Source: Desulfotomaculaceae bacterium (GTDB taxonomy: Bacteria; Bacillota; Desulfotomaculia; Desulfotomaculales; Pelotomaculaceae). Taken from it: DNA of 64,000 nucleotides. Of this stretch, positions 17,002 to 44,623 are shown piece after piece. The stretch lies in assembly GCA_028696455.1 (NCBI GenBank), contig JAQVGZ010000001.1:34585-98584 (forward strand), read 5' to 3'. The notes under the pieces are model-generated. The model did no database searches. It was given only the letters and a program-made list of their open reading frames with translations, and had not been told where the DNA came from. Numbering within the stretch: the first letter of the stretch is position 1; every line of letters starts with the position of its first letter. Position numbers and translations under genes: made by a program.

Positions 17002-17224
17002 AGAAAGATTAAAGAATTTTTTGTTCCGGGAGACTGCCGGGCTTCCCGTTGTAGAATAAGGATGAGTTTAAATAAATTGATAGCTTGTTCTTCTTCCAAA
17101 TAGGGCCTGGGCAGAGTTTTAAATTTGCATAATTAATTCATTTAAAGGGGTGATTAAGAGAAAATTTACTAAGTTGGAGTTTGTAAACAGCATTTAATTG
17201 AATTCAAAAAAAAGGGGGCTAATC

Positions 17225-26281: not shown

Positions 26282-28249
26282 ATGAGGTACGCAGAGACGG
26301 GGTATAATTTAGAAATTGATTTATCGACAGGAAACATTGAGAAGGTAGAAACCGACCCAAAATGGACTGAGCTTTACCTTGGGGGGTTAGGTACCAACGC
26401 AAAGATAATGTGGGATAGGGTCCCCCCTGAAACTGAGCCCTTTTCTCCTGATAATCTGCTAATCTTTAGCAGTGGTCTTTTAGGCGCCACACCTGCCGTT
26501 GGTGCTAATCGGACCATAGTGACCGCAATTTCTCCCCAGACGCAATTTATGGCATATTCAATGATGGGGGGATTTTTTGCATCTGAAATGAAGTATGCAG
26601 GTTATGACAAGATCATTATTCGCGGCAAGTCCCCCAAGCTCGTTTATTTGTGGATTAGCGATGACAAAGTAGAAATTCGTGATGCTTCTCATTTAGCTGG
26701 CAAGGGCGCTGTTGAAACTCAGGAACTGATTAAACAGGAATTAAAGGATATGAGAATCCACGTGGCAGCTATCGGCCTGGCTGGTGAAAACCGGGTCTTT
26801 TTTGCCTCCATCGAGCAGGGCAGATCTAGTGCCAGCCGGCAAGGACTGGGTGCCGTGATGGGGGACAAAGGGTTAAAGGCAATAGCCATACGTGGCAAGA
26901 AGGACATCAGCATAGCCAGGCCGGAGGAATATATTAAGCTTTGTGATGATGTAATGCAATATATCCAGTTTCGGCAAGCTAATCCAATTCCCGGGGTAAT
27001 GCCCATTTTGTCTATACTTGGTTCACCGCAGGAGATGCTGCACGTTGATGAGAAGTGGCACACTGAAAATTTCGTATGGGGCAATGCCCGCGTCCGGAGA
27101 AAGGGCTTTTGGACCGAGGAAATCGAAAAGAAGTGGGAAGAAACACAATTAGGTGCGCGGACGCGATTAATCAGCTGCTATAATTGCCCTCTGAAATGCG
27201 GGGCGACAATTTCCATCCCAGGTATATCCAGATACATGATGAAGTGCTTCTCCAAGCTGACTTATACGATGGCGGCCTTTTCAGATCTGGATTTTGGCTT
27301 TAGAATCGCTCAGCGTGCCACGGAGTATGGCATCGACGGTTTTTCAGGTCCGCAAGTGATGGCCTTCGCCGTTGAGCTGAAAGAAGCCGGCATCTTGACC
27401 GACAAGGACTTTGAAGGCTGTCCGTCTGATAATGAGGGGAGATTCTACTGGCTCTTGGACAGAATTGTCCGGCGGGAAGGTATTGGCGAAGTTCTGGCCG
27501 ACGGCACTTATTGGGCAGCCAAAAAGATTGGACAAGGCGCGGAGGAATTTGCTCATAACAATATCAGAAAACATGAGCAGGCGCCGCTCAAGCTGGGCAT
27601 GATTAATCCCATTTATTACTTGATGTATTCTACCAACGAAAAGTCAAACATTACCCAGATTGAAGGACAGTTTCCCCAGGCGCCTTACCCTGAGCGGGAG
27701 CAGAGAGAAGAGTTTGTCAAGGATTGGTTCCAGGTTCCTAATGACAGGATTAAGGAATATTTCCTGAAGTGGGAGCCCCGCGGTGAATTCTCCATGCCGT
27801 ATTATCCGGGCATTCAAGAATGCTGTGAGATAGTTGATTGGATGGAGAGGATGCACTACATTGATGATGCTGTCGGGGTATGCGCTGGTTTATCATCATT
27901 TCCTCTGAAGCCTCCTTATCATATTCACAATTACCCCAATTTTGTCACAGCGGGAACCGGGATCGAAATAGATGAAGCGGAGCTAGTCAAAATATCCAAG
28001 CGTAACCGTCAGTTAGTTAGGGCGAATAATGTCAGAAGAGGCTTGCGGAGGGCTGATGATACGCCGCCCGAAGACCATTGGAAGAAGAGACTGCCTGAGT
28101 ATGAAAAACAGCTCCTTGATGCTTATTTCGAATTTAAAGGATGGGATATGGACGGTGTTCCTACAAAAGAGTCTTTACAAAGTTTGGATTTGAATTATGT
28201 AGTTGAAGACTTTGAACAGAGAGGGATCATAAAAGATGGCCAAGACTAA
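26282..28249 (+). CDS. bamB: BamB-1: tungsten AOR-family subunit of class II benzoyl-CoA reductase type
   Basis: 655 residues, full length for BamB. Aldehyde:ferredoxin-oxidoreductase family: N-terminal MRYAETGYNLEIDLS, W-bis-pterin-binding blocks (GGLGTNAKIMWD, KYAGYDKIIIRGKSP, VMGDKGLKAIAIRGKK) and the [4Fe-4S] ligand run SCYNCPLKCG, with the later Cys in MMKCFSK. It matches the Geobacter BamB sequence as I remember it along its length, including DFGFRIAQRATEYGIDGFS and ITQIEGQFPQAPYP. Expected role: ATP-independent two-electron reduction of benzoyl-CoA to the 1,5-dienoyl-CoA at a tungsten site. The ORF starts at TTG 26276, but AGAGGGG fits ATG 26282. It overlaps bamC by 14 bp. No other benzoyl-CoA pathway gene is in the window, so the exact substrate is inferred. 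Confidence 0.85.
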   Translation: MRYAETGYNLEIDLSTGNIEKVETDPKWTELYLGGLGTNAKIMWDRVPPETEPFSPDNLLIFSSGLLGATPAVGANRTIVTAISPQTQFMAYSMMGGFFASEMKYAGYDKIIIRGKSPKLVYLWISDDKVEIRDASHLAGKGAVETQELIKQELKDMRIHVAAIGLAGENRVFFASIEQGRSSASRQGLGAVMGDKGLKAIAIRGKKDISIARPEEYIKLCDDVMQYIQFRQANPIPGVMPILSILGSPQEMLHVDEKWHTENFVWGNARVRRKGFWTEEIEKKWEETQLGARTRLISCYNCPLKCGATISIPGISRYMMKCFSKLTYTMAAFSDLDFGFRIAQRATEYGIDGFSGPQVMAFAVELKEAGILTDKDFEGCPSDNEGRFYWLLDRIVRREGIGEVLADGTYWAAKKIGQGAEEFAHNNIRKHEQAPLKLGMINPIYYLMYSTNEKSNITQIEGQFPQAPYPEREQREEFVKDWFQVPNDRIKEYFLKWEPRGEFSMPYYPGIQECCEIVDWMERMHYIDDAVGVCAGLSSFPLKPPYHIHNYPNFVTAGTGIEIDEAELVKISKRNRQLVRANNVRRGLRRADDTPPEDHWKKRLPEYEKQLLDAYFEFKGWDMDGVPTKESLQSLDLNYVVEDFEQRGIIKDGQD

Positions 28250-28775
28250 GAAGATAATCAAGACAATTAAAATTGACATCGAGAAGTGTAATGGTTGCCG
28301 GGCATGCGAAGTGATCTGCTCCGCCTTCCACGCTAACCCAAGGTATAGCAGCAATAACCCGGAGCGGTCACGTATCCGGATGATCCGTGAACCACTCAAT
28401 GACATATATCTTCCTGTATACGCCGGTGAATATGCTCCGGCTGAATGTATGGGGAGAGACATATACGTGCTTGATGGCAGGGAGTATGAAGAGTGCGCCT
28501 TCTGCAGGGCTGCCTGCCCGTCAAGGGATCTTTTTCATGAGCCAGATTCTGGTCTGCCACTCAAATGTGATATGTGTGAGGACGATCCGCCGCAAGAAGA
28601 GCCCCTGTGTGTTAAGTGGTGCATCAATGATGCGTTAATTTATGAAGTAAGGGAAGAGGAAGTTGAAGAGGAAGAGGATATAGACGAAGTAGAGATCGGA
28701 TTACAGTCGTTGGTTGACAAGCATGGAATGCAAAAGTTAGTGGAGACTATTACCCGAATGTCACTAAAGGACTAA
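28236..28775 (+). CDS. bamC: BamC-1: ferredoxin-like electron-transfer subunit
   Basis: 179 residues with multiple [4Fe-4S] motifs: CNGCRACEVIC, CAFCRAACP, CDMCEDDPPQEEPLCVKWC, as in DMSO-reductase-B-like/AOR-partner ferredoxins. It passes electrons between the Hdr-like subunits and the BamB tungsten site. An acidic tail (EEEVEEEEDIDEVE) precedes the C-terminal helix. Begins inside the 3' end of bamB (translational coupling) and ends 4 bp before bamD. Confidence 0.85.
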   Translation: MAKTKKIIKTIKIDIEKCNGCRACEVICSAFHANPRYSSNNPERSRIRMIREPLNDIYLPVYAGEYAPAECMGRDIYVLDGREYEECAFCRAACPSRDLFHEPDSGLPLKCDMCEDDPPQEEPLCVKWCINDALIYEVREEEVEEEEDIDEVEIGLQSLVDKHGMQKLVETITRMSLKD

Positions 28776-28779
28776 ACTA

Positions 28780-29949
28780 ATGAAAGAAGAGGATTTCGTG
28801 GAAACTGTAACCCCCTTCAAAGAAGTAATTGATGAAATAAAGCAGGGCGGCGGAGAAGCCGTCAAATACTGCTACCAATGTGGGAAGTGCGATACTGTTT
28901 GCCCCTGGAATAAGGTAAGAACTTTCAGTATGCGCAAGCTAATCCGGGAGGCTACCTTCGGTTTGACCGAAATTGAGAATGAAGAAATCTGGCGCTGCAC
29001 CACTTGCGGGAAGTGCGTCCAGAAATGCCCGCGTGACGTCAAGCAGATTAATAACATGATCGCAGTGCGCCGGATGGCCACCGGCTATGGTGTATTTCCT
29101 GCCGCTGTCAAGCCGATCCGCGGAATTGCCTCCAACCTAGGCGCAGAAGGCAACCCTTTCGGTGAAAGCCGGAAAAATAGGGCGGATTGGGCCGATGGTC
29201 TCTCCGTTAAAACCTTTGAGGAAGGCATGGAAGTTCTATATTACCCCGGCTGCTACCTCTGCTATGACCCAAGGTTGAAGAAGGTAGCCAAAGCCACGGC
29301 CAGTGTCCTCAACAGGGCCGGAGTGGATTACGGGATCCTGGGCGAGCAGGAGAACTGCTGCGGGGAAAGCATCCGCAAGACCGGCAATGAGGAATTGTTC
29401 AGGAAATTAGCCAAAGATAACATCAAAACGTTTATCGAAAACGGTGTTAAGAAAATAGTGGTATCTTCCCCGCACTGCTTACACACCTTCAAGAACGAGT
29501 ATCCTGAATTTATGGCGAATTTTGAAGTATTGCATATAACCGAGTTTTTGTTCCAGTTGATTAACGAGGGAAGACTACAAATCAATAAGGAATATGCGAA
29601 GAAAATTGTATATCATGACCCCTGCTATCTAGGCCGGCATAACGGTGTGTTTGATCAGCCGCGCGGGATCTTAACGAAGGTACCCGGTCTGGAACTAAAA
29701 GAATTTGCCGAGTCGCGGGAAGAAAGCTTCTGCTGCGGCATGGGTGGTGGCAGGATTTGGATGGAAACACATACTTCCGACCGGTTCTCCAACCTCAGGT
29801 TGAAAGACGCCATTGACCTTGGCGCTGAAGAACTGGTTACCGCATGCCCCTATTGCATCACCATGTTTGAGGACAGTAGAGCGGTTGGAAACTTAGATGA
29901 CGTGATCCAAGTCAAGGATATCACGGAGGTTCTCAACGAGGTGATTTAG
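28780..29949 (+). CDS. bamD: BamD-1: HdrD-like CCG-domain Fe-S protein
   Basis: 389 residues. Two N-terminal [4Fe-4S] motifs (CYQCGKCDTVCPW, CTTCGKCVQKCP) followed by two CCG/DUF224 domains (ENCCGES, SFCCGMGGG) as in heterodisulfide reductase subunit D. In the Bam complex this subunit links the HdrA-like flavoprotein to the ferredoxins. ATG start. Its stop overlaps the fdhD start by one base. The protein is identical to that at 38159 (see the repeat entry). Confidence 0.85.
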   Translation: MKEEDFVETVTPFKEVIDEIKQGGGEAVKYCYQCGKCDTVCPWNKVRTFSMRKLIREATFGLTEIENEEIWRCTTCGKCVQKCPRDVKQINNMIAVRRMATGYGVFPAAVKPIRGIASNLGAEGNPFGESRKNRADWADGLSVKTFEEGMEVLYYPGCYLCYDPRLKKVAKATASVLNRAGVDYGILGEQENCCGESIRKTGNEELFRKLAKDNIKTFIENGVKKIVVSSPHCLHTFKNEYPEFMANFEVLHITEFLFQLINEGRLQINKEYAKKIVYHDPCYLGRHNGVFDQPRGILTKVPGLELKEFAESREESFCCGMGGGRIWMETHTSDRFSNLRLKDAIDLGAEELVTACPYCITMFEDSRAVGNLDDVIQVKDITEVLNEVI

Positions 29950-30727
29950 TGGCGAGGAAGCCGGACATGCAGGAAGCAATTGGAGTAACCGGTATGAAAG
30001 ATGTAGTAGCGGAGGTAATCTGTGATCGCTTTTCAGAGGGTGGATGGCTCAGGACCGCGGCTTACATGCCTAGAGAGATGGAGTTAACCATCTATGTGAA
30101 TGAGAAAGCGCTGGTTACTATCTTGTGCACTGCGGCCAAGCTGGATTATCTTGTCTTTGGCTACCTTTACGCCGAGGGAATCATCTCATGCGCCGGCGAT
30201 GTGGCAAGCGTACGGTTGAGTAAAGAGGAATCGCTGGCCGACGTGAGGCTGAAGAACCCTAGGAATGAATTGCCGACGTTGCGCAAACTTGGCTGCAGCG
30301 GCAGTTCAATTTTTAAAACTCAAGGACAAAGAGTTAATTCGGATCTTGTTGTTGCACCGGAGGAAGTGCTGTCACTGATGCAGAAATTGCAAGAGCAGAT
30401 GGAGCTGTATCCGATTAGTGGCGGCGTGCACACTTCCGCTCTATCCGATACCAAGAACCTGCTGGTGGTGGCTGAGGATATCGGACGTCATAACACCTTG
30501 AACAAAATCCAGGGCGAATGTTTATTGCGGGGTATACCAACCAGGGATCGTCTAGTGCTGATTACTGGCCGCATATCGTCCGAGATGCTGCTCAAGGCGG
30601 CAAGGATGGAAACGCCGGTTGTTGTTTCACGGCACGCGCCGACGGAGAACGCCATTTTACTTGCACGTGATTTGGGCATTACCCTGGTTGGCCAGGCCCG
30701 TAATAGCCGCCTAGCGGTGTTTACCCA
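28781..30727 (+). repeat. 1,947-bp exact repeat, copy 1 (bamD-fdhD)
   Basis: Identical, as far as I can read, to 38160-40106 at a constant offset of 9,379 bp. The match begins one base into the bamD start codon (ATG here, GTG there) and ends ten codons before the fdhD stop. Flanking paralogues are clearly diverged on both sides. Confidence 0.9.
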
Positions 30728-30758
30728 TCCGGAGCGGCTTGGTTTGCCGACAAATTAA
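29949..30758 (+). CDS. fdhD: FdhD-1: sulfurtransferase for Mo/W cofactor maturation
   Basis: 269 residues of the FdhD family, which hands sulfur from cysteine desulfurase to the metal-bound bis-MGD cofactor. Family blocks: KLDYLVFGYLYAEGII, GGVHTSALSD, EDIGRHNTLNKIQGECL, TGRISSEMLLKAARM, VSRHAPTENAI and ITLVGQ. The usual two-cysteine loop is reduced to one (LGCSGSS). GTG start overlapping the bamD stop, so it is translated with the complex genes and probably matures the tungsten cofactor of BamB (inference). Identical to the 39328 copy except at its last ~11 residues. Confidence 0.88.
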   Translation: MARKPDMQEAIGVTGMKDVVAEVICDRFSEGGWLRTAAYMPREMELTIYVNEKALVTILCTAAKLDYLVFGYLYAEGIISCAGDVASVRLSKEESLADVRLKNPRNELPTLRKLGCSGSSIFKTQGQRVNSDLVVAPEEVLSLMQKLQEQMELYPISGGVHTSALSDTKNLLVVAEDIGRHNTLNKIQGECLLRGIPTRDRLVLITGRISSEMLLKAARMETPVVVSRHAPTENAILLARDLGITLVGQARNSRLAVFTHPERLGLPTN

Positions 30759-30806
30759 GTATGGTTAACCCGTAGAATTAGGGAAAACCTGGTGAGGTGA
30801 TAGAAA

Positions 30807-33800
30807 GTGGAAGAAGAACTGTTGTTAAAAGATAAGATTCAACAACTTCGCGATAGTGGTGGCTCCAATTTTGGAGACGTTATGATTGTTGGTGGCGGAA
30901 TCAGCGGTATTCAAGCCTCCCTTGATCTGGCCGCTGCTGGTTTTAAGGTCTACCTGGTTGAAAAAAAGCCGAGCATCGGGGGCCATATGGCTCAACTGGA
31001 TAAAACGTTTCCCACCAATGACTGCTCCATGTGAATACTCGCACCCAAGCTGGTCGAGGTCGGCCGGCATCCAAATATTGAGGTCCTGACATATACTGAA
31101 GTGGACAGCATTGTCGGGGAAGCAGGGGATTTTAAGGTCAAGCTGATCAAAAATCCCAAGTATATCAATGAGGAGAAGTGCACGGGCTGTACTGTCTGTG
31201 TGGAGTACTGCCCAGTCAAATATCCGGATGAATTTAACCAGGATATTTCCATGAACAAGGCTATTCACATCTTTTTTCCTCAGGCGATTCCTTTAGTCGC
31301 CTATATTGATGAAAGCTGTCTATACCTGAAAGAGAATAAGTGTCGTATTTGCGAAGGAGTATGTAAAAATAATGCAATCGATTTGAAACAATTGCCGGAA
31401 ATTAAAGAGATCAATGTGGGGGCGGTAATTCTGGCCCCCGGCTTTGAGCCGTATGATCCCAAGCTCCGGGCGGAATATCACTACGGTGATTTCGTAAACG
31501 TGATCACTAGTATGGATTTTGAACGGCTGTTGAGCTCCACCGGTCCATATTCTGGTGAGATCCTGCGTGCTTCCGATAAGAAGCACCCTCACAAGTTGGC
31601 CTGGATTCAGTGTGTCGGCTCTAGGCAGGTTACCGAGGGTGGCCATAGTTATTGTTCAGCCGTATGTTGCACTTATGCACAGAAACACGTGATTTTGACC
31701 AAAGACCACGACGTTGATGCCGAGTGTACAATTTTCCACAATGATATCCGCTCCTATGGGAAGGATTTTGAGCGGTTCTACGAAAGGACAGTAAGGTTGC
31801 CCGGGGTCAGGTTTATTAGAAGCTATACCTCAATCGTAGGAGAGGACCCGGTAACCAAGAATGTCACCATCCGGTATTCTACACCCGATAATGGTGTAAA
31901 AGAGGAAGAATTCGACATGGTGGTGCTGTCCATTGGCTTGAGTCCTCCTACTGGTGTGAGGGAAATGGCGAAAAAGTTTGGCATTGAGCTTACCGCACAC
32001 GATTATTGCAAGCTCAATCCGGCCAATCCGATGGAAACTAACAGGCGCGGGATTTTCGTCAGCGGTGCTTTCCAGGGACCGATTGATATTCCAGAGTCGG
32101 TATTTAGCGCCAGTGGTGCCGGCTCCCAGATTGGCGAGCTGCTTAACCGCAGGCGGGGGAACCTGTCCACGGAAAGGGTATATCCGGAGGAGCAGGATGT
32201 TTCTGAGGAGGAGCCGAGGGTAGGCGTCTTTGTCTGCCACTGTGGCGCCAACATTTCCCGGGTAGTCAGCATTGGGGCCACAGTAGAGTATTGCAAGACC
32301 TTGCCAAACGTTGTCCATGCCCAGGAACAGCTATTTTCATGCGCCACCAACTCTGCCAAGGAGATCACCGACACGATCAAGGAGAAAGGGCTCAACCGCG
32401 TGGTTGTTGCCGCCTGCTCCCCCAGAACGTTGGAGCCGTTATTCCGGGACACCGTCCGGGAGGCGGGAATTAACCAGTATTACTACGAAATGGCTAATAT
32501 CCGGGAGCATGATTCCTGGGTCCACTCGAGGGAAAAAGAAGAAGCCACCAAGAAGGCGTGGGACATCATTCGGATGTCGGTAGCCCGGGCCTGCAACCTT
32601 GAGCCGCTGCAGGAGTTTGACCTGCCGGTAAATAAGGCGGCTCTGGTGGTTGGCGGGGGTATTGCCGGTATGGTTTGCTCCCTCTCCATCGCTAATCAGG
32701 GGCATGAGGTTTACCTGGTTGAGAAGGATATGGCCCTGGGGGGGATCGCCCGTAGAATAAGCCATACCCTGGAAGGTATGGATGTCCAGGTCTATTTACG
32801 CGACATTACTGAAAAGATTTATAAACATCCCTTAATCCATGTTTATACCGGAGCCACCATTACGGAGGCCACTGGTTATATTGGGAATTTCGTCACTACG
32901 GTGAGGTCTAACCGGGGGATTGCGGAAATAAAACATGGTGCTGCCATCCTGGCTATTGGCGCAGATCTATACACACCGACTGAATACCTGTACGGTGAAG
33001 ATGAACGGGTCATGACCCATCTGGAGCTGGATGAAGAAATCAAAAGGAGCAGCGAAAAAATTGCCAACGCGGAAAGCGTTGTAATGATTCAGTGTGTCGG
33101 TTGTAGAAATGAGGACAGGAATTATTGCAGCAGGATCTGCTGTAGCGAGTCTGTGAAAAATGCCCTGAAGTTAAAAGAGATGAATCCTGAGCGGGATGTC
33201 TACATTCTCTTCCGGGATATCAGGACATATGGGCTGAAAGAGGATTATTACCGGGAGGCTGCCAGTAAAAATATCAGGTTTATTCGTTATGAGCCTGAGG
33301 ATCCGCCTGTGGTGGAGCCTGGCGAGTCAGATGAGGGTAAACCTGTGCTAAAGGTTACCGTAACCGATCCGGTACTGTTGAAAAAAATTGAATTGGACGC
33401 TGACATCCTTGCTCTGGCGGCTGCTGTGATCCCCTCAGAAGCAATCAAGGAAGTAGCTGCATTATTCAAGGTAGTATTGAGTCCTGACGGCTTCTTCAAA
33501 GAAGCTCACGTCAAATTAAGACCTGTTGAGTTTGGTACAGACGGTGTTTACTTGTGTGGAGCGGCTCACTATCCCAAGTTTATCCAGGAAACCATTAACC
33601 AGGCTTATGGAGCTGCAGGCCGGGTCTTAACGTTGCTCTCGCATGATATAGTTGTCGCCTCCGGCGCTGTTTGCGAGATAGATGAGAAGAAGTGCATGGG
33701 GTGCGGGGCATGTGCCGCAGTTTGTACCTATGGCGCCCTAAGTCTAAATGATACAAGATTGGGCAAAAAGGCAGTAATTAATCCTGTACTATGTAAAGGA

Positions 33801-33905
33801 GATGGCCTTTGCAACGCCAAATGTCCAACAGGGGCTATTTCACTCAAGCACTTTACCGATGACGAGATCATGAGCGAAATTGATGCTCTGGTTGGAGGAT
33901 TGTAG
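30807..33905 (+). CDS. bamE: BamE-1: HdrA-like flavoprotein with selenocysteine (UGA codon 76)
   Basis: 1,032 residues if UGA 31032-31034 is read as Sec. The ORF track splits it into 30807..31034 and 31101..33905, both in one frame. Two FAD domains ([37 protein letters not shown]) and ferredoxin sites [30 protein letters not shown] and GDGLCNAKC. Sec replaces the second Cys of the HdrA motif (NDCSM-U-ILAPKL), a cluster ligand in HdrA. BamE-2 has Cys here. A strong hairpin follows the UGA. GTG start with GAGGTGATAG upstream. Expected role: flavin-based electron bifurcation in the Bam complex (from Hdr chemistry). Confidence 0.85.
31032..31068 (+). promoter_or_regulatory. SECIS element of BamE-1
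   Basis: UGA at 31032-31034, then after 14 nt a continuous 8-bp stem GCTGGTCG/CGGCCGGC (two G-U pairs) with loop AGGT. Loop starts 22 nt after the UGA and has G at its second position, as the bacterial SECIS rule expects. Confidence 0.75.
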
Positions 33906-33940
33906 AGATTTCTGGATACTAACGCAGGAGGTGAAAACAA

Positions 33941-34780
33941 ATGAGTGCAGAGCTTAAATTTAAACCGAAAATATTAGGTTTTGCATGCAACTGGTGAGCA
34001 TACGGCGCTGCAGATTTGGCTGGAGTTTCCAGACTACAATATGCTACTGATATGAGATTGCTCCGCGTCATGTGTTCCGGCAGAGTGGACCTAAAACATG
34101 TGCTCAGGGCCTTCTCGAAAGGAATGGACGGGGTGTTTATCGGCGGTTGCCACTATAATGAGTGCAACTATATTACAAATGGTAATTACCACGCGCTAAA
34201 CATGGTGCTGTTAGCTAAAAGGCTCCTGGAGCACATCGGGCTGAACCCGGAGCGGCTAACCATGAGGGTGATGTCCGGAGCTGAGGCAAACCTATATGCC
34301 GATCATGTTAATAGTTTTATTAAGACGATCAAGGGGTTGGGTCCGCTTGGCCAAAGCGAAGGCTTGGATAAGGAAGAACTGGCTGAAAGCCTTGCCAGGG
34401 TTACGAAGTTGGTCCCCTACATTAAGATCATGAAGAATGAAAAACTAGGGACGTTCCTTATGAATGAAGATGATTACGAGGGTCTGTTCACCAGAGATGA
34501 GATTGATAAATTGTTCAATGAAATGATCTCGTATTATATTGACCCGGTCAAGTGTCAGGCCTGTATGACCTGTGCCAGGAGATGCCCGGAAGGAGCGATT
34601 ATCAGCGCCAAAGGGCAGGTCCACATCATTGACCAGGATAAGTGTATCAGATGCGGTTCCTGCATGGCTGGATGCCCGCCGCGCTTCGGCGCAATCAGAA
34701 AGCTGGAAGGTGGCGAGCCCGTACCGCCACCGCCACCGGAAGGTGAAAGGGCTGTGGTCAGGAAAGCCAAAGCACAATAA
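33941..34780 (+). CDS. bamF: BamF-1: MvhD-like selenoprotein with C-terminal 2[4Fe-4S] domain
   Basis: 279 residues with UGA at codon 19 as Sec; the ORF track misses the start. ATG 33941 follows AGGAGGTG. The N-terminus reads GFACNW-U-AYGAADLAG, the CNWC motif of MvhD/hydrogenase-delta proteins with Sec for the second Cys. The [2Fe-2S] site is completed by RVMCSGRVD and GCHYNECNY. A ferredoxin domain is added at the C-terminus (CQACMTCARRCP, CIRCGSCMAGCPP). MvhD links HdrA to an electron donor. This long version probably makes contact with extra ferredoxin or NADH-type subunits. Followed by a strong terminator at 34843. Confidence 0.85.
33995..34032 (+). promoter_or_regulatory. SECIS element of BamF-1
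   Basis: UGA 33995-33997; hairpin CTGGA-GTT-TCCAG at 34020-34032 with G first in the loop, 27 nt after the UGA. The same hairpin is conserved base for base in bamF-2, including synonymous positions. Confidence 0.7.
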
Positions 34781-34842
34781 CTTCACGTTAAATATAGCTA
34801 ACAAGGTTAGCTAAAAGAAATTTAAAAATATTACCTATCTTT

Positions 34843-34889
34843 AGCAGTATAAATTGTTGAAACAGGTTTCGACAATTTATACTGCTTTT
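34843..34889 (+). terminator. Terminator of bam module 1
   Basis: 15-bp perfect stem AGCAGTATAAATTGT/ACAATTTATACTGCT, extended by TGAAA/TTTCG, then TTTTG. Lies 60 bp after bamF-1. Confidence 0.85.
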
Positions 34890-35636
34890 GTCTTGTTATC
34901 ATACAGTGTATGACTTTCATACATAACTAAGAAAGTCTTCTCTCAATAATATACCCACCAATCTTTTATAACATAGCTGACGCAATCATTTAATGGAAAA
35001 CAATAACTCTATGAAGTAGGGAAGTGCTGTCCAACAGGCGAACCTGCAATATTGCAGTGAGAAATTTTCTCATTACTCAGGTCCTAATGGTAGTTAGCAT
35101 GATAATTGCATGACAATAGCAGTGGGCGATAGTAGAAAGCAATTGATAATATAAAACCTAAACTTCAGAAAAAGGCAAGGGGGGATTTCACGCAACTTTG
35201 AATTAATTATAGCCGTTATAACACTCAGATGTTGACTATTTAATGAGAGGGGAGGCTTTAGTCCCATTACATGTACCCTGACTTAAGATGGTGCTTTTAA
35301 TAGTGGCCTCCGCCATTAAAGTAATGAACTTAAGTAAAGGGGGAATAATCAGGGGCGAATTACAAGAAAACCTTTCAAGCGATGTTAACAAGCAGGGTGA
35401 ACTACCACAAGTTTCCAGGATAACTACTTAATAGTCCATTGAGAACATGTGCACAGAGTTCCTAAAAGACAAAGATAGATTGTAGCCTGTAAGAGTTTTA
35501 TGTACAGACGTAAACAAATGTGTTTAAAATTGTGAATCTGAGCACAATGGTGCCCAATTATAAGAAACTTCGTGGCTGAAGGTCATGGCTACGGAGATAC
35601 CCGCATGGGTAAAAAGATATGTAGAGGGGTTAAAAA
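34890..35636 (+). other. ~750-bp unexplained leader upstream of bamB-2
   Basis: No ORF of note on either strand. Locally paired segments: GGAGGC...GGCCTCC around 35250-35320, and a dense stretch GGGCGAATTACAAGAAAACC ... AATAGTCCATTGAGAAC ... GCCTGTAAGAG from ~35350 to 35510 that reads like structured RNA, possibly group-II-intron domain I-like. No reverse transcriptase and no domain V were found. It may be a long regulatory leader of bam module 2. Confidence 0.4.
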
Positions 35637-37577
35637 ATGAGGTACGCAGAGACAGGGTTTAATTTAGAAGTTGATTTGACTAAAGGAAATATTGAGAGGG
35701 TAGAAACTGACCCTAAATTAACTGAACTTTATTTGGGTGGTCAGGGTACTGCTGCCAAACTCTTCTGGGACAGGGTTCCTCCTGAAGTCAAACCCTTTGA
35801 TCCCGAAAACCTACTCATGTTCAGCGCCGGCCTTTTACATGGCACTCCTGTTCCAGGTGCCAACCGTACTTCTGTCAATACCATTTCTCCCGCCACAGGC
35901 TTATTTGGACATTCCTTAATGGGAGGGTTCTTCGGGCCGGAACTCAAGTACGCCGGTTACGACAAAATCATCATTCGCGGCAAGTCGCCCGAACTGGTTT
36001 ATTTGTGGATCCACAATGACAAAGTAGAAATCCGTGATGCCAGTCACCTTAAAGGATTGGGCATTAACGAAACTACGAAGGCCATTAGACAGGAATTAGG
36101 TGAACCCAGAGCCCAAGTGGCCTGCATTGGTCCGGCTGGTGAAAACCGGGTCTATACAGCTAGTATCGATTGCGGTTGGTCCAGCGCAGCCCGCGGGATA
36201 GGCCCGGTTATGGGAGACAAAAGGTTAAAAGCAATTGCCGTGCGTGGCACTAAAGACATTTACGTTGCCCACCCGCAAGAACTCTATGAAGAATGCAGAA
36301 AGATGTATAAGAAAATTAATGACAGCGATGGTTGCGGTGACTGGATGGCAGTCGATGAGGATGACAGCTTCCACCACAACAATTTCGCCTGGGGTAATGC
36401 CCGGACGCGGATAAAAAATTACTGGAGCGCTGAACTGCAAGAAAGATGGACACGCTGGAAATATGATAACATGGACCGGCAAATGGGTTGCTTTGCATGC
36501 CCGAAGGGTTGCATTAACGTTATTTCCTGGCAGGATAAACCTCGCTTTGCCTATAAATGCTACGGCAAAGATACCTACCATATGGCTGCCTTTAAAGAGC
36601 TGGACTACACCTATGGTATGCTTGGTAAAGCTATAAATTACGGTCTGGACTCCTACTCAACGGCACAACTCCTGGCGTTTGCTGTTGAGCTTTACGAGGC
36701 TGGTATTTTAACTGATAAGGATCTGCCTAATTTCCCGAAAGATTCCGGAGATAGAATCCTGTATCTCATGGAAATGGTTGTTCACCGGGAAGGGATTGGA
36801 GATACTTTAGCCTATGGCATTACTAAAGCGGCTAAAATGATTGGTAAAGGTGCAGAAAAATACGACCACAATACCGTAAAAGGATTCGAACAGTTGCCGA
36901 TTAAGCTAGGAAAGCTAAACCCCGCTTACTTCCTGATGATTGCCACCGCAGAAAAGATGGCAATCACCCAGATTGAGGGGTCATTCCCGCAGGATCCGTT
37001 GCCAACTATCGAAGAGAGGCAAAAGTTCTGCGATGAATGGGAAGCGGTGCCTCATGGTTCAAAGTTTAAACAATATTTTATGGAGTGGGAAAAGAGAAAC
37101 GAAATCTCTGATGACAGGACTTGTGAAATTGTTGACTGGAATGAAACCATGCACTACGTTGATGACTCCACCGGTCTTTGTGGTTTTGTGTCATCCTTTA
37201 GAGGTCAGTTTGGCGGAAAAGTTGCCTATCACTTGAATAATGTGCCTAAGTTTGTCACGCTGGCAACAGGTATTGAGTTTGATACAGACGGGCTATGGGA
37301 AATTGCTAGAAGAAACCGGACATTGATTAGAGCCATTAACAATAGACTGGGACTGCGGAGAATACATGATCGTCCGCCGGAAGACCACTGGGCAGTAAGA
37401 GACGAAGAATATGAACAAAAGCTGCTAAGTCAGTATTATGAATTCAGAGGCTGGAATATGGATGCCATTCCTACCAAGGAAACTTTATATAAACTGAAAC
37501 TGGACTATGTGGCCGATGAGTTAATCGAGCGGGGAATTCTGACCGAGGATGATTCCGACAAAGAGAAAGCACTATAG
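35637..37577 (+). CDS. bamB: BamB-2: divergent tungsten AOR-family subunit
   Basis: 646 residues. Same family and layout as BamB-1 (MRYAETGFNLEVDLT, KYAGYDKIIIRGKSP, VMGDKRLKAIAVRGTK), but the cluster region is GCFACPKGCINV instead of SCYNCPLKCGATI. The middle and C-terminal parts differ widely (KELDYTYGMLGKAINYGLDSYS; SSFRGQFGGKVAYH). BamB-1 is nearer the Geobacter BamB I remember, so this copy may act on another aromatic or alicyclic acyl-CoA, or run in another direction. ATG with TAGAGGGG upstream. Leads the second module. Confidence 0.82.
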   Translation: MRYAETGFNLEVDLTKGNIERVETDPKLTELYLGGQGTAAKLFWDRVPPEVKPFDPENLLMFSAGLLHGTPVPGANRTSVNTISPATGLFGHSLMGGFFGPELKYAGYDKIIIRGKSPELVYLWIHNDKVEIRDASHLKGLGINETTKAIRQELGEPRAQVACIGPAGENRVYTASIDCGWSSAARGIGPVMGDKRLKAIAVRGTKDIYVAHPQELYEECRKMYKKINDSDGCGDWMAVDEDDSFHHNNFAWGNARTRIKNYWSAELQERWTRWKYDNMDRQMGCFACPKGCINVISWQDKPRFAYKCYGKDTYHMAAFKELDYTYGMLGKAINYGLDSYSTAQLLAFAVELYEAGILTDKDLPNFPKDSGDRILYLMEMVVHREGIGDTLAYGITKAAKMIGKGAEKYDHNTVKGFEQLPIKLGKLNPAYFLMIATAEKMAITQIEGSFPQDPLPTIEERQKFCDEWEAVPHGSKFKQYFMEWEKRNEISDDRTCEIVDWNETMHYVDDSTGLCGFVSSFRGQFGGKVAYHLNNVPKFVTLATGIEFDTDGLWEIARRNRTLIRAINNRLGLRRIHDRPPEDHWAVRDEEYEQKLLSQYYEFRGWNMDAIPTKETLYKLKLDYVADELIERGILTEDDSDKEKAL

Positions 37578-37597
37578 TCAGGGAGGTGAAAACTGTA

Positions 37598-38149
37598 ATG
37601 GGTGAGTTAGTAAAGAAAAAAGTTAAAGTGATCAAAGTTAATCTTGGTAAATGCAATGGTTGCCGTTATTGTGAGATAGCTTGCGCAGCATTTCACGCCA
37701 ATCCGCGATATAGCAGCATAAATCCGGCTAGGTCACGAATTAGAGTTGTTACGGATATATATAATGATGAGTTAGTCCCGATTCGCGCCACTGATTATAG
37801 TAAAGCTGAATGTGATGGCCGGCGTGTTTATACGGTTGGTGATAAGGAATATAGTGAGTGCAGCTTCTGCGGGACAATCTGCCCGGCCAGGGATCTATTC
37901 CATGAGCCAGATTCTGGTCTGCCCCTTAAATGCGATTTGTGTGAAAGCGATCCGCCGCAAGAAGAGCCCTTGTGTGTTCAGGCGTGCGCTCGTGATGCCC
38001 TGACTTACGAGGAAAAGGAAGTTTTAGTTGAGGCTGAAGATGAAGCGCAGGTAAGGCCGGCTGAGATGGAGTTGGGATTAAGATCACTAATTGACAAATA
38101 TGGAGTTGCAGCTTTAACAGATACTTTTGCCCGGATGAAGAAGGGCTAA
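37598..38149 (+). CDS. bamC: BamC-2: ferredoxin-like electron-transfer subunit
   Basis: 183 residues. [4Fe-4S] motifs CNGCRYCEIAC, CSFCGTICP, CDLCESDPPQEEPLCVQAC. The ORF track starts at GTG 37586, inside GGGAGGTG, so ATG 37598 with that Shine-Dalgarno nine bases away is better. Paralogue of BamC-1 with clear divergence. The bamD-2 start lies 9 bp after its stop. Confidence 0.82.
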   Translation: MGELVKKKVKVIKVNLGKCNGCRYCEIACAAFHANPRYSSINPARSRIRVVTDIYNDELVPIRATDYSKAECDGRRVYTVGDKEYSECSFCGTICPARDLFHEPDSGLPLKCDLCESDPPQEEPLCVQACARDALTYEEKEVLVEAEDEAQVRPAEMELGLRSLIDKYGVAALTDTFARMKKG

Positions 38150-38158
38150 AACACTAAT

Positions 38159-39328
38159 GTGAAAGAAGAGGATTTCGTGGAAACTGTAACCCCCTTCAAA
38201 GAAGTAATTGATGAAATAAAGCAGGGCGGCGGAGAAGCCGTCAAATACTGCTACCAATGTGGGAAGTGCGATACTGTTTGCCCCTGGAATAAGGTAAGAA
38301 CTTTCAGTATGCGCAAGCTAATCCGGGAGGCTACCTTCGGTTTGACCGAAATTGAGAATGAAGAAATCTGGCGCTGCACCACTTGCGGGAAGTGCGTCCA
38401 GAAATGCCCGCGTGACGTCAAGCAGATTAATAACATGATCGCAGTGCGCCGGATGGCCACCGGCTATGGTGTATTTCCTGCCGCTGTCAAGCCGATCCGC
38501 GGAATTGCCTCCAACCTAGGCGCAGAAGGCAACCCTTTCGGTGAAAGCCGGAAAAATAGGGCGGATTGGGCCGATGGTCTCTCCGTTAAAACCTTTGAGG
38601 AAGGCATGGAAGTTCTATATTACCCCGGCTGCTACCTCTGCTATGACCCAAGGTTGAAGAAGGTAGCCAAAGCCACGGCCAGTGTCCTCAACAGGGCCGG
38701 AGTGGATTACGGGATCCTGGGCGAGCAGGAGAACTGCTGCGGGGAAAGCATCCGCAAGACCGGCAATGAGGAATTGTTCAGGAAATTAGCCAAAGATAAC
38801 ATCAAAACGTTTATCGAAAACGGTGTTAAGAAAATAGTGGTATCTTCCCCGCACTGCTTACACACCTTCAAGAACGAGTATCCTGAATTTATGGCGAATT
38901 TTGAAGTATTGCATATAACCGAGTTTTTGTTCCAGTTGATTAACGAGGGAAGACTACAAATCAATAAGGAATATGCGAAGAAAATTGTATATCATGACCC
39001 CTGCTATCTAGGCCGGCATAACGGTGTGTTTGATCAGCCGCGCGGGATCTTAACGAAGGTACCCGGTCTGGAACTAAAAGAATTTGCCGAGTCGCGGGAA
39101 GAAAGCTTCTGCTGCGGCATGGGTGGTGGCAGGATTTGGATGGAAACACATACTTCCGACCGGTTCTCCAACCTCAGGTTGAAAGACGCCATTGACCTTG
39201 GCGCTGAAGAACTGGTTACCGCATGCCCCTATTGCATCACCATGTTTGAGGACAGTAGAGCGGTTGGAAACTTAGATGACGTGATCCAAGTCAAGGATAT
39301 CACGGAGGTTCTCAACGAGGTGATTTAG
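38159..39328 (+). CDS. bamD: BamD-2: HdrD-like CCG-domain Fe-S protein
   Basis: 389 residues, identical to BamD-1 apart from a GTG instead of ATG start codon. Same two ferredoxin motifs and two CCG domains. There is no clear Shine-Dalgarno in the short gap from bamC-2, unlike copy 1 (AAAGGA), so expression may differ. It overlaps fdhD-2 by one base. Confidence 0.85.
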   Translation: MKEEDFVETVTPFKEVIDEIKQGGGEAVKYCYQCGKCDTVCPWNKVRTFSMRKLIREATFGLTEIENEEIWRCTTCGKCVQKCPRDVKQINNMIAVRRMATGYGVFPAAVKPIRGIASNLGAEGNPFGESRKNRADWADGLSVKTFEEGMEVLYYPGCYLCYDPRLKKVAKATASVLNRAGVDYGILGEQENCCGESIRKTGNEELFRKLAKDNIKTFIENGVKKIVVSSPHCLHTFKNEYPEFMANFEVLHITEFLFQLINEGRLQINKEYAKKIVYHDPCYLGRHNGVFDQPRGILTKVPGLELKEFAESREESFCCGMGGGRIWMETHTSDRFSNLRLKDAIDLGAEELVTACPYCITMFEDSRAVGNLDDVIQVKDITEVLNEVI

Positions 39329-40106
39329 TGGCGAGGAAGCCGGACATGCAGGAAGCAATTGGAGTAACCGGTATGAAAGATGTAGTAGCGGAGGTAATCT
39401 GTGATCGCTTTTCAGAGGGTGGATGGCTCAGGACCGCGGCTTACATGCCTAGAGAGATGGAGTTAACCATCTATGTGAATGAGAAAGCGCTGGTTACTAT
39501 CTTGTGCACTGCGGCCAAGCTGGATTATCTTGTCTTTGGCTACCTTTACGCCGAGGGAATCATCTCATGCGCCGGCGATGTGGCAAGCGTACGGTTGAGT
39601 AAAGAGGAATCGCTGGCCGACGTGAGGCTGAAGAACCCTAGGAATGAATTGCCGACGTTGCGCAAACTTGGCTGCAGCGGCAGTTCAATTTTTAAAACTC
39701 AAGGACAAAGAGTTAATTCGGATCTTGTTGTTGCACCGGAGGAAGTGCTGTCACTGATGCAGAAATTGCAAGAGCAGATGGAGCTGTATCCGATTAGTGG
39801 CGGCGTGCACACTTCCGCTCTATCCGATACCAAGAACCTGCTGGTGGTGGCTGAGGATATCGGACGTCATAACACCTTGAACAAAATCCAGGGCGAATGT
39901 TTATTGCGGGGTATACCAACCAGGGATCGTCTAGTGCTGATTACTGGCCGCATATCGTCCGAGATGCTGCTCAAGGCGGCAAGGATGGAAACGCCGGTTG
40001 TTGTTTCACGGCACGCGCCGACGGAGAACGCCATTTTACTTGCACGTGATTTGGGCATTACCCTGGTTGGCCAGGCCCGTAATAGCCGCCTAGCGGTGTT
40101 TACCCA
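38160..40106 (+). repeat. 1,947-bp exact repeat, copy 2 (bamD-fdhD)
   Basis: Second copy of 28781-30727 in the same orientation. The two direct repeats enclose fdhD-1 end, bamE-1, bamF-1, bamB-2 and bamC-2. Homologous recombination between them would delete 9,379 bp and leave one hybrid module. Confidence 0.9.
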
Positions 40107-40137
40107 CCTGGAACGACTTTGTTGCTTAACAAATTAA
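39328..40137 (+). CDS. fdhD: FdhD-2: sulfurtransferase for Mo/W cofactor maturation
   Basis: 269 residues, identical to FdhD-1 up to FTH, then LERLCCLTN instead of PERLGLPTN. The exact repeat ends at this point. Same family assignment and same single-Cys LGCSGSS loop. Two identical FdhDs are not needed for function, so the copy probably rides along with bamD. Confidence 0.88.
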   Translation: MARKPDMQEAIGVTGMKDVVAEVICDRFSEGGWLRTAAYMPREMELTIYVNEKALVTILCTAAKLDYLVFGYLYAEGIISCAGDVASVRLSKEESLADVRLKNPRNELPTLRKLGCSGSSIFKTQGQRVNSDLVVAPEEVLSLMQKLQEQMELYPISGGVHTSALSDTKNLLVVAEDIGRHNTLNKIQGECLLRGIPTRDRLVLITGRISSEMLLKAARMETPVVVSRHAPTENAILLARDLGITLVGQARNSRLAVFTHLERLCCLTN

Positions 40138-40201: not shown

Positions 40202-43200
40202 ATGGAAAAAGAACAAATGGAAGAACAGATTTCTAAATGTATCGGAGAGAAAAATTTTGGAGATGTAATGGTTGTCGGTGGCGGGATCAGCGGTATTCAA
40301 GCTGCGCTGGATCTTGGCACGGCAGGTTTTAAAGTATACCTGGTGGATAAGGCGCCAACTATTGGCGGCCACATGGCCCAGTTGGACAAGACCTTTCCCA
40401 CCAACGACTGCTCTATGTGTATTGAGTCTCCCAAGTTTAATGAAACTGCAAGACATCCCAATATTGAGATCATCACCTATACTGAAGTGGACAGTGTGGA
40501 GGGGCAATCTGGGGACTTTACGGTAACCCTTAAGAAAAAGCCCCGGTATATTGATGAGACAAAATGCACCGGCTGTACCGTCTGTACAGAATACTGCCCG
40601 GTCGTGTACCCTGATCAATTCAACCAGGAGATATCCAAGAATAAAGCGATCCATATCTACTTTGCCCAGGCCACTCCCCTTGTTTCTTATATCGATGACA
40701 GTTGCCGTTACCTGAAAGATAAGACATGCACGATTTGCCAGGGAGTTTGTAAGTCTGATGCCATTGATTTCACTCAAAAGCCTGAGAAAATGGAAGTAAA
40801 AGTAGGGGCGATCGTGCTGGCCCCAGGCTTTGATGCCTTTGATCCCAAGTTGCGGCAAGACTATGGCTACGGAGTGTTTGAGAACGTGGTCACCAGCCTT
40901 GATTACGAGCGGCTATTATGTGCCACCGGGCCTTACGAAGGTGAGATCATGCGCGCGAGTGACAAGAAACACCCGCATAAAATCGCCTGGATCCACTGCG
41001 TTGGCTCCAGGCAGGTACTAGAGGGCGGCAACAGTTATTGCTCAGGCGTATGTTGCACTTACACTCAGAAGCAGGTTATTTTGACTAAAGATCATGACGC
41101 CGAGGCCGAGTGCGTCATCTTCCATAATGATATCCGCTCCTATGGCAAGGACTTTGAGCGCTTCTACCAGAGAGCCGAGAACCTGCCCGGAATCCGGTTT
41201 GTCAGAAGTTATGTGTCAATAGGAAAAGAGATCCCTGGAAGCAAGAATGTCACAATCAGATACGCTACTGCCGAGAGCGGGGTAAAAGAGGAAGAATTCG
41301 ATATGGTTGTGCTGTCCGTTGGCCTGAACCCGCCGGCGGATGCGTTAAAAATGGCCGAAACCTTCGGTATCGAGTTGAATAACCACGGATTCTGCAAAAC
41401 CAATCCCTTTAATCCGATGGAAACCACCCGCCCGGGAATTTTTATCAGCGGTTCCTTCCAGGGACCGATTGATATTCCCGAATCGGTGGTAACCGCCAGT
41501 GGCGCTGGCTCCCAGTGCGGTGAGCTCCTGGATTACCGGCGTGGCGAGCTTTCCACAGAAAGGGTTTACCCACTGGAAAAGGATGTATCGAAAGAAGAGC
41601 CCCGGATTGGTGTCTACGTGTGTCACTGTGGAGCCAATATCGGCAGGATCGTAAGTGTTCCTTCCGTAGTTGACTATGCCAGGACACTGCCCAATGTTGT
41701 GCATTCTGATGAGAGCCTGTTTATTTGCTCGACTGAAGCGGCTGCGATGCTGGCCAAGGACATTCAGGAAAAAGGGCTCAACCGCGTGGTTGTCGCCGCA
41801 TGCACGCCAAGGACACACGAGCCGTTGTTCCGGGAGACGCTGCGTGAGGCTGGAATCAACCAGTATTACTTTGAATTTGCTAACATTAGAGAACACTGCT
41901 CCTGGGTTCACTCCAAAGAGGCAGAAACTGCCACTAAAAAGGCTAAGGAAATCGTCAGAATGGCGGTAGCTAGAGCCAGCTATTTGGAGCCCCTGGAAGA
42001 ATTTGACCTGCCTGTGGACAGAAGGGCATTAGTGGTTGGCGGCGGAGTGGCCGGCATGACCAGCGCTCTCTCCATTGCTAAACAAGGCCATGAGGTTTAT
42101 CTGGTGGAAAAAGCCAGCGACCTGGGTGGCCAGGCGCGAAGAATCCATTATACGCTGGAAGGAATGGATGTTCAGGCGTATTTGAATGATTTGATCCGAA
42201 AGGTTTACCAACACCCCTTAATCCATGTCTATACTGATGCCACTATCCTGGACGCCAGCGGCTTTGTTGGGAATTTTGTAACCACGGTGAAGAGTGAAGG
42301 CAGGATTACAACCATCAAGCATGGCGCCGGTATCATTGCGACTGGGGCTGACGTATACACTCCCAGCGAGTACCTCTATGGTGCAGACGATCGGGTCATG
42401 ACCCATCTAGAGCTTGATGAGGCAATCAACAATGGAAGCGAAAAGGTAGCTAACGCGGAAAGTGTTGTGATGATCCAGTGCGTGGGCTGTAGAAATGAAG
42501 ACCGGAATTACTGCAGCCGAATCTGCTGCACTGAGTCGATTAAAAACGCTTTGAAACTAAAAGAAATCAAACCCGAGATAGATGTGTATATACTCTTCCG
42601 GGATATCAGAACTTATGGCTTCAAAGAGGATTATTACCGGGAAGCGGCCAACAACAATGTCAGGTTCATCCGCTATGAACCGGAAAGTCCGCCTGTGGTG
42701 GAAGCGGGTGAGTCGGATGAAGGCAAGCAGGTTCTGAAGGTTACCGTAATAGATCCAATCCTAGTGAAGAAGCTGGAATTAGACGCCGATATACTTGCTC
42801 TGGCAGCTGCTGTTATTCCGTCGGCAGACAGGAAGGAAATAGCAAACTTGTTTAAGGTATCCCTGGGCCCGGATGAATTCTTCCAGGAAGCTCATGTCAA
42901 ATTAAGACCGGTTGACTTTGGTGCCGATGGCATGTACCTGGCCGGGACAGCCCACTATCCCAAGTTTATATCAGAAACGGTGAGCCAGGCCTATGGTGCC
43001 GCCGGGCGGGCCTTAACGCTTCTTTCACACGATACGGTAGTGGCCTCCGGCTCCGTTTGTGAGGTGGATGAGAGCAGGTGTATTTCCTGCGGAGCCTGCA
43101 TCACTGTATGTGAATATGGCGCCATCGAGTTTTATAACTCACCAACAGGCAGAAAGGCCAGGGTTAATCCTGTTCTCTGTAAGGGAGATGGTCTGTGCAA

Positions 43201-43291
43201 CACCAAGTGCCCAACAGAGGCGATTGTACTCAAGCACTTCAATAATGTAGAGATGGCAAGCCAGATTGACGCGGCTTTTGCTGAATTATAG
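40202..43291 (+). CDS. bamE: BamE-2: HdrA-like flavoprotein, cysteine form
   Basis: 1,029 residues, uninterrupted. Cys73 (NDCSMCIESPKF; TGT codon) stands where BamE-1 has Sec. Two FAD domains ([31 protein letters not shown]) and ferredoxin sites CTGCTVCTEYC, CTICQGVC, CISCGACITVC and GDGLCNTKC. ATG with GGGTGG upstream. Expected to mediate flavin-based electron bifurcation with BamF-2 and BamGHI. Strong overall similarity to BamE-1, with the C-terminal third well conserved. Confidence 0.86.
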   Translation: MEKEQMEEQISKCIGEKNFGDVMVVGGGISGIQAALDLGTAGFKVYLVDKAPTIGGHMAQLDKTFPTNDCSMCIESPKFNETARHPNIEIITYTEVDSVEGQSGDFTVTLKKKPRYIDETKCTGCTVCTEYCPVVYPDQFNQEISKNKAIHIYFAQATPLVSYIDDSCRYLKDKTCTICQGVCKSDAIDFTQKPEKMEVKVGAIVLAPGFDAFDPKLRQDYGYGVFENVVTSLDYERLLCATGPYEGEIMRASDKKHPHKIAWIHCVGSRQVLEGGNSYCSGVCCTYTQKQVILTKDHDAEAECVIFHNDIRSYGKDFERFYQRAENLPGIRFVRSYVSIGKEIPGSKNVTIRYATAESGVKEEEFDMVVLSVGLNPPADALKMAETFGIELNNHGFCKTNPFNPMETTRPGIFISGSFQGPIDIPESVVTASGAGSQCGELLDYRRGELSTERVYPLEKDVSKEEPRIGVYVCHCGANIGRIVSVPSVVDYARTLPNVVHSDESLFICSTEAAAMLAKDIQEKGLNRVVVAACTPRTHEPLFRETLREAGINQYYFEFANIREHCSWVHSKEAETATKKAKEIVRMAVARASYLEPLEEFDLPVDRRALVVGGGVAGMTSALSIAKQGHEVYLVEKASDLGGQARRIHYTLEGMDVQAYLNDLIRKVYQHPLIHVYTDATILDASGFVGNFVTTVKSEGRITTIKHGAGIIATGADVYTPSEYLYGADDRVMTHLELDEAINNGSEKVANAESVVMIQCVGCRNEDRNYCSRICCTESIKNALKLKEIKPEIDVYILFRDIRTYGFKEDYYREAANNNVRFIRYEPESPPVVEAGESDEGKQVLKVTVIDPILVKKLELDADILALAAAVIPSADRKEIANLFKVSLGPDEFFQEAHVKLRPVDFGADGMYLAGTAHYPKFISETVSQAYGAAGRALTLLSHDTVVASGSVCEVDESRCISCGACITVCEYGAIEFYNSPTGRKARVNPVLCKGDGLCNTKCPTEAIVLKHFNNVEMASQIDAAFAEL

Positions 43292-43341
43292 ACGACGAGC
43301 ATAAATAATCCGGGATTATTAAGTAAGGGGGTGAGATAAGA

Positions 43342-44109
43342 ATGAGTACAGACAAAAAATTCACACCAAGGATTCTGGGTTTTGTATGCAACTGGTGAGC
43401 ATACGGTGCAGCAGACTTGGCTGGAGTTTCCAGACAACAATATGCGACCTACACCAAGTTAATCCGTGTGATGTGTTCCGGTAGAGTTGATCTCTCGCAT
43501 GTACTCAGGGCTTTCTCAAATGGAGCAGACGGAGTGTTTATCGGTGGTTGTCACCTCAACGAGTGCCATTACATCACTGATGGGAATTTCAGTGCTTTGG
43601 GCAATGTGTATATACTGAAAAAAATTATAGAGCGCATCGGACTAAACCCTGACCGGTTGAGAATGGAATCAATGTCTGCTGGTGAAGGTATCCGCTTTGC
43701 CGAAGTGATGAATGAATTCAGCAAGCAAGTGTTGGATTTAGGGCCGCTCGGCAAAGGTGAAGGGATGGACGAAGACACATTAAAGTCCAGGCTTGAGGCA
43801 GTTAAAAGTCTGGTTCCCTACATCAGGCTGGTGGAAAGGGAGAGGCTGAGATTACCTGTTAAAACAGAGCAAGCATACCGTAAGTTTTTCACCAGTGATG
43901 AGTTCAACAGGGTGTTTGATGAAACAATTGGAGAAAAATTAGCAATCGGGCAAATTATCTCCATTTTGCGGGAAAAACCCCTGACCACCGGCGAAATCGC
44001 CAATGCTTTAGGCCTGACTCCCTCTGAAGTATCAAGGCACTTGATTACTTCGTCAAGGCAAAGATTCGTCAGGTTCGACGAAAGCCTGAAACGTTACGCT
44101 CTCGCTTAA
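43342..44109 (+). CDS. bamF: BamF-2: MvhD-like selenoprotein with C-terminal winged-helix-like domain
   Basis: 255 residues with UGA at codon 19 as Sec; the ORF track starts only at 43417. ATG 43342 follows GGGGGTGAG. N-terminus GFVCNW-U-AYGAADLAG, then RVMCSGRVD and GCHLNECHY as in BamF-1. Past ~residue 140 it diverges. In place of the ferredoxin tail it ends in a helix-turn-helix-like stretch ISILREKPLTTGEIANALGLTPSEVSRHL, like an ArsR/MarR-type winged helix. Whether that part binds DNA, a partner subunit or nothing is open. Confidence 0.85.
43396..43433 (+). promoter_or_regulatory. SECIS element of BamF-2
   Basis: UGA 43396-43398; hairpin CTGGA-GTT-TCCAG at 43421-43433, identical to that in bamF-1, loop G 27 nt after the UGA. 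Confidence 0.7.
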
Positions 44110-44161
44110 GCTAGGAAGAGCTGGCGGTGATTAAAGGGAAAAAAGGAGATTGGAACAGGCT

Positions 44162-44614: not shown

Positions 44615-44623
44615 GGTGAAATT

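Follow-up and report, generated by a model that had tools for sequence, protein, structure and literature searches.

How can two stretches of DNA remain identical over 1,947 bp when the genes on either side of them differ widely? The question arises in a 64-kb window (the whole stretch of 64,000 nucleotides that was analysed, positions 34,585 to 98,584 of contig JAQVGZ010000001.1 in assembly GCA_028696455.1) from a Desulfotomaculaceae bacterium, in which two tandem gene modules, predicted to encode class II benzoyl-CoA reductases (Bam), share an exact copy of bamD, encoding an electron carrier resembling HdrC and HdrB, and of most of fdhD. A first-pass annotation of the window had offered as its options gene conversion confined to bamD-fdhD, selection for a single shared subunit, and collapse of a short-read assembly. 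In the source genome and its relatives, one of them finished, the first is favoured by gene trees, by synonymous distances and by the tract edges, and we consider it very probable that the repeat reflects recent gene conversion, an instance of a concerted evolution that recurs in bamD. The suggested comparison of the pair in related genomes thus revealed recurrent homogenisation across the clade, beyond what could be seen from the window itself.

An exact repeat between divergent modules

Direct comparison within the window gave no mismatches over 1,947 positions between 28781-30727 (copy 1) and 38160-40106 (copy 2; both on the plus strand, as are all Bam genes below), at an offset of 9,379, and the sharp edges reported in the first-pass annotation were confirmed. 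The left edge falls inside the bamD start codon, whose first base differs between the copies (A at 28780, G at 38159) and whose second base opens the identity, and the right edge lies 31 bases, or about ten codons, ahead of the final base of the stop codon of fdhD; outside the repeat, identity dropped to about chance level in bins at both edges. The next-longest exact repeat in the window measures 78 bp, making this one the longest by far, and chance is not an option for identity of such length. Copy 1 spans bamD of module 1 (28780-29949), which encodes a Fer4 part at the N-terminus and two CCG domains, an arrangement resembling HdrC plus HdrB, and most of fdhD (29949-30758; FdhD/NarQ sulfurtransferase family, PF02634 E 6e-64, TIGR00129 above cut-off). 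In module 2, bamD (38159-39328) has a GTG start and is otherwise identical, and the last ten codons of fdhD (39328-40137) and the spacer to bamE2 are unlike module 1 and similar to the type II module of Dethiobacter BL5_bin.7. The source genome is a 2.69-Mb draft of 167 contigs, with both copies inside one 98.6-kb contig; a scan of this genome for a third bamD-fdhD copy or for contig ends inside the repeat found none.

Each module has the gene order bamB-bamC-bamD-fdhD-bamE-bamF, and module 2 extends into nuoE-like and nuoF-like genes. Amino acid identity between modules was 54% for BamB, 57% for BamC, 72% for BamE and 47% for BamF, in keeping with the wide flanking differences noted earlier. 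The BamB tree formed two clades and the BamC tree split likewise; from these two trees we defined type I, to which module 1 (bamB 26282-28249, ferredoxin-like bamC 28236-28775) belongs, and type II, to which module 2 (bamB 35637-37577, bamC 37586-38149) belongs. Both BamB copies, members of the tungsten aldehyde:ferredoxin oxidoreductase family, aligned over their full length to their homologue Geobacter BamB 4Z3W (1112.6 bits for module 1, 751.7 bits for module 2) and carry the tungsten ligand Cys322 and His260. Glu251, His255, Glu257 and His260 have been described as invariant in BamB (PMC12096430). Among the sequences compared here, His260 was present in 49/49 and position 255 varied in both types; Glu251 occurred in 27/31 type I sequences, including module 1, and in 0/18 of type II, and position 257 was Glu in 31/31 of type I and Asp in 17/18 of type II, including module 2. 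Type II BamBs therefore differ from described Bam enzymes in lacking Glu251 and having Asp257, retain Cys322, and probably reduce a different aryl-CoA substrate.

A further marker lies in BamE, which has selenocysteine (Sec; motif NDCSM[U]) in most type I modules and Cys in most type II modules, across families. The tandem order B1 C1 D E1 F1 B2 C2 D E2 F2 NuoEF was also found in Desulfotomaculum gibsoniae and Desulfotomaculum sp. BL5_bin.2, and the type-specific flanks recur in other families, including on the finished D. gibsoniae chromosome (4,855,529 bp). Since tandem order and type markers are common to several families, the module duplication is older than these families; judged on these markers, the two modules are old and of different types.

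Homogenisation of bamD in related genomes

The closest relatives of the window BamD were those of Pelotomaculum sp. PtaB.Bin104 (G002; 93% amino acid identity) and the Desulfotomaculaceae metagenome-assembled genome STF1_190 (G001; 89%). Across the wider set, BamD clustered by genome, whereas BamB and BamC clustered strictly by type. The source genome, P. terephthalicicum JT (G003), Desulfotomaculum sp. BL5_bin.2 (G067), D. gibsoniae (G075, five copies) and Dethiobacter BL5_bin.7 (two copies) each had a BamD clade of their own, and the BamDs of G013 and PtaB.Bin013 (G017) formed a lineage clade. A published threshold for recurrent concerted evolution is at least five species of one order (PMC6053082); here, genome-exclusive clades came from four genomes of one order (source, G003, G067 and G075) and from Dethiobacter elsewhere, with the G013/G017 pair and the genus of Desulfoscipio geothermicus BM5_bin.10 (G049) and G076 at lineage level only.

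Over 11 multi-copy genomes, BamD required 12 genome-label changes on its tree (minimum possible 10, shuffled minimum 17), against 21 for BamB, 19 for BamC and 17 each for BamE and BamF, which is the level of shuffled labels. Module type changed once on the BamB and BamC trees, four times for BamE and twice for BamF, so that the other flank also tracks the module, and ten times for BamD (the BamB, BamE and BamF trees were quick searches). An approximately unbiased test rejected a module-2 BamD clade of the source, G067, G075 and Dethiobacter (p 5e-5); this group was named from the trees of other genes, and the test placed no constraint on the identical rows of the source genome. Within a genome, paralogues hence resembled each other more than orthologues did across species, synteny marks the duplication as old, and on sequence comparison bamD has been homogenised several times independently in related bacteria. 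The tandem pair of G510, which comes without close relatives for comparison, had 84% amino acid identity in BamD versus 54% in BamB, 64% in BamC and 71% in BamE, a pattern suggestive of, and compatible with, homogenisation. A search of 28 genomes, reached through their loci, turned up mostly single copies.

Synonymous divergence for bamD, bamC and bamE, respectively, was 0, 2.05 and 2.09 in the window pair, 0.004, 1.48 and 0.83 in BL5_bin.2, 0.04, 1.09 and 0.81 in Dethiobacter BL5_bin.7, and 0.08, 1.22 and 1.39 between copies a and b of D. gibsoniae. Close similarity at synonymous sites was thus seen in these four genomes, and was weak or absent in G003, G049, G082, G200 and G235. On the finished D. 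gibsoniae chromosome homogenisation was limited to the gene, at 97.8% nucleotide identity with 30 separate mismatches, and some homogenised pairs lie megabases apart. Within bamD, the longest exact runs reached about 1,120 bp and 1,021 bp in the draft relatives BL5_bin.2 and Dethiobacter BL5_bin.7, and ranged from 251 to 555 bp among D. gibsoniae pairs.

For most pairs, similarity rose at the bamD start or no more than about 50 bp from it and fell at or just past its stop; the tract takes in fdhD only in the window. Just 3' of the tract, the contrast of Sec in E1 with Cys in E2 is conserved across families, so conversion stops short of bamE. Modules of the same type in D. gibsoniae also had near-identical bamE, bamF or nuoF (98-99% amino acid identity for most); conversion seems possible in these genes too, confined to matching types.

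Gene conversion weighed against its alternatives

Under gene conversion, homologous recombination without exchange of flanks would recently have copied the 1,947-bp bamD-fdhD tract from one module to the other, with the tract ending where homology runs out, between bamC and bamD on the left and at the end of fdhD on the right. Module 1 is the more likely donor. Its synonymous divergence from PtaB.Bin104 is even through bamB (0.77), bamD (0.67) and bamE (0.88), as would fit a donor without proving it. The region 3' of module 1 fdhD matches module 1 of PtaB.Bin104 and the spacer after module 2 fdhD resembles that of the Dethiobacter type II module, so that the two tract ends are native.

That bamD is homogenised repeatedly, whereas module type is preserved in BamB, BamC and the E/F subunits, may have to do with its role. 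In pairs not recently converted, exact matches of at least 20 bp numbered 8 in BamD and 8 in BamE (G200), 2 and 11 (G235), and 12 and 3 (G003); BamE is not homogenised across types despite as many or more exact matches in two of the three pairs. The supply of pairing substrate alone therefore looks insufficient, and more than opportunity for pairing is probably involved; BamD may be interchangeable between types, unlike its neighbours. In published models an iron-sulfur chain leads out of BamBC to the remainder of the complex (PMC12096430). Given its place between BamC and BamE in gene order, BamD could be a joint of that chain, a generic electron-transfer link between a type-specific catalytic half (BC) and a type-specific bifurcating half (EF), and conversions would then be tolerated or favoured in bamD and not in B, in C or across E types.

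The alternatives differ in what they leave unexplained. Selection for one shared subunit, in the form of purifying selection on the BamD protein without any DNA exchange, draws on the fact that, compared across species, BamD ranks with the best conserved of these subunits, as its identity to the PtaB.Bin104 protein illustrates; it cannot by itself equalise synonymous sites, where divergence is zero within the window against the values given above for the PtaB.Bin104 bamD and for bamC and bamE, and the start codon and flanks do differ. As a sole cause it is ruled out by synonymous-site identity, and we give it practically no credence; selection may still explain why conversions were retained. 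The idea that the whole module was recently duplicated and that divergent outside genes then took the place of BamBC and BamEF, leaving bamD-fdhD as a remnant, has in its favour that BamBC types are patchy and that several BamB subclades cross genera, implying that cassette exchange happens. It would, however, require two separate replacements, one on each side, that reinstate in every lineage the tandem order and type-specific spacer known from other families, where conversion needs one event per lineage, and we regard it as very unlikely.

Somewhat less remote, yet still improbable, is that the copies differ in the cell and were merged by the assembler into one consensus placed twice. The genome is a fragmented draft, an exact repeat of 1.9 kb is long for short-read assembly, and bamD is evidently hard to assemble, as contigs of G013 stop inside it and PtaB.Bin104 is scrambled at the same place. 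Merging nevertheless requires copies that are already near-identical and could not arise from copies diverged like the flanks (60-71% nucleotide identity). The gene order matches independent genomes, neither the window nor the other examined stretches of the contig contain any N, and homogenisation likewise limited to the gene is present on the finished chromosome of D. gibsoniae. Collapse during assembly could explain the absence of a last few mismatches in the window and cannot explain the pattern in relatives.

Several observations weigh against recurrent gene conversion, or at least limit it. Some pairs are weakly or anciently homogenised, with synonymous divergence of 0.69 in G003 and 0.7-1.0 in G200, G235 and G082, and in G082 homogenisation is absent. 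All assemblies except those of D. gibsoniae and Acididesulfobacillus are drafts, and the zero differences in the window could reflect a consensus built from copies that are almost identical; in a draft, zero versus a few is unproven. The closest relative with a module 2, PtaB.Bin104, has a scrambled one without bamC2-bamD, and the pre-conversion state cannot be read from it. That module (L160:10755-13511, C134) consists of abutting fragments, one of them inverted, with bamC2-bamD-fdhD missing, representing either mis-assembly at the repeat or real decay.

Hybrid modules, known parallels and other features of the locus

The first-pass annotation had also predicted that recombination between the copies would delete 9,379 bp and swap modules, which fits hybrid modules found in relatives. 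A crossover between the direct repeats would leave B1-C1-D-fdhD-E2-F2-NuoEF, and G003a, G028 and Desulfosporosinus SRJS8 combine a type I BamB with a Cys-type BamE and F2. Their BamBs fall in other type I subclades (the placement of G028 is unsure owing to a long branch), so these are independent hybrids and not descendants of the window array, and they suggest that bamD also acts as a swap joint. More tentatively, and on balance doubtful, a uniform bamD may be kept by selection such that one BamD fits every BamBC and BamEF variant and mixed complexes are built, with the shared gene doubling as a recombination joint that exchanges type I and type II cassettes onto Sec- or Cys-HdrA units. The overall pattern points to BamD as the common joint of specialised catalytic and electron-bifurcating halves in the megadalton benzoyl-CoA reductase, the wiring of which is still under study, and hybrid complexes are predicted that can be searched for. 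In practical terms, bamD trees cannot tell modules apart, and draft genomes of aromatic degraders are expected to break or scramble at bamD.

Gene conversion that recurs in a single subunit of paralogous operons has precedents in mtrA, amo and tuf (PMC4632066, PMC6053082). The closest parallel is mtrA-1/mtrA-2 of methanogen mtr operons (PMC4632066), likewise two copies of one energy-metabolism subunit with long, repeated homogenisation while other parts differ; the mtrA copies, however, share a single operon and are set apart by a fused transmembrane domain, whereas bamD lies in whole parallel modules with other subunits diverged, and in one lineage a second gene, fdhD, is included. The 26 genes listed by Wang and Chen in 2018 (among them tuf, amoCAB, psbA, mtrA and nuoL; PMC6053082) resemble bamD in having within-genome paralogues closer than orthologues, at synonymous sites too, and in encoding members of complexes; neither BamD nor any HdrB/HdrD relative appears in the two tables of that paper. 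The bam clusters of Geobacter (BamBC 4Z3W) and D. gibsoniae share gene content and order with the window modules. For D. gibsoniae, several bam copies, including six of bamB, and scattered affiliations in bamB and bamC trees have been described (PMC4148979); that paper is silent on any homogenisation of bamD, and a match search in it returned no word on duplication. A literature search combining benzoyl-CoA reductase with gene conversion returned nothing relevant in the library searched, and no report of such homogenisation for bamD was found, gene conversion itself being a known process.

In one of a genome's modules, the fdhD gene that separates bamD from bamE has often decayed or gone missing, being intact only in module 1 in D. 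gibsoniae and only in module 2 in BL5_bin.2, with remnants elsewhere (loci L177, L192, L164 and L203). Its product may serve the BamB tungsten cofactor; FdhD has been detected with Bam proteins in a benzene-degrader proteome (PMC13101534).

Downstream of the repeats, bamE1 (30798-33905) and bamE2 (40202-43291) are HdrA-like and bamF1 (33935-34780) and bamF2 (43340-44109) MvhD-like, and the nuoE-like and nuoF-like genes (bamG and bamH, 44150-46555; PF01257, PF01512) end module 2. Open reading frames called with translation table 11 start too late for BamE1 (31101), BamF1 (34016) and BamF2 (43417), all three of which need an in-frame TGA read as Sec (at NDCSM[U] in BamE1, at CNW[U] in both BamFs), and their start codons are approximate; bamE2 carries Cys where bamE1 carries Sec. 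A tRNA-Sec is present in the source genome (66.7 bits). At its C-terminus, BamF2 (reading frame 43417-44109) has an ArsR-like helix-turn-helix domain (PF01022) in the place of the ferredoxin motifs found in BamF1. Elsewhere in the window, positions 17198-19921 encode an S-layer homology protein that matches SWM_repeat and contains internal direct repeats, up to 78 bp long and spaced 321 and 642 bp apart.

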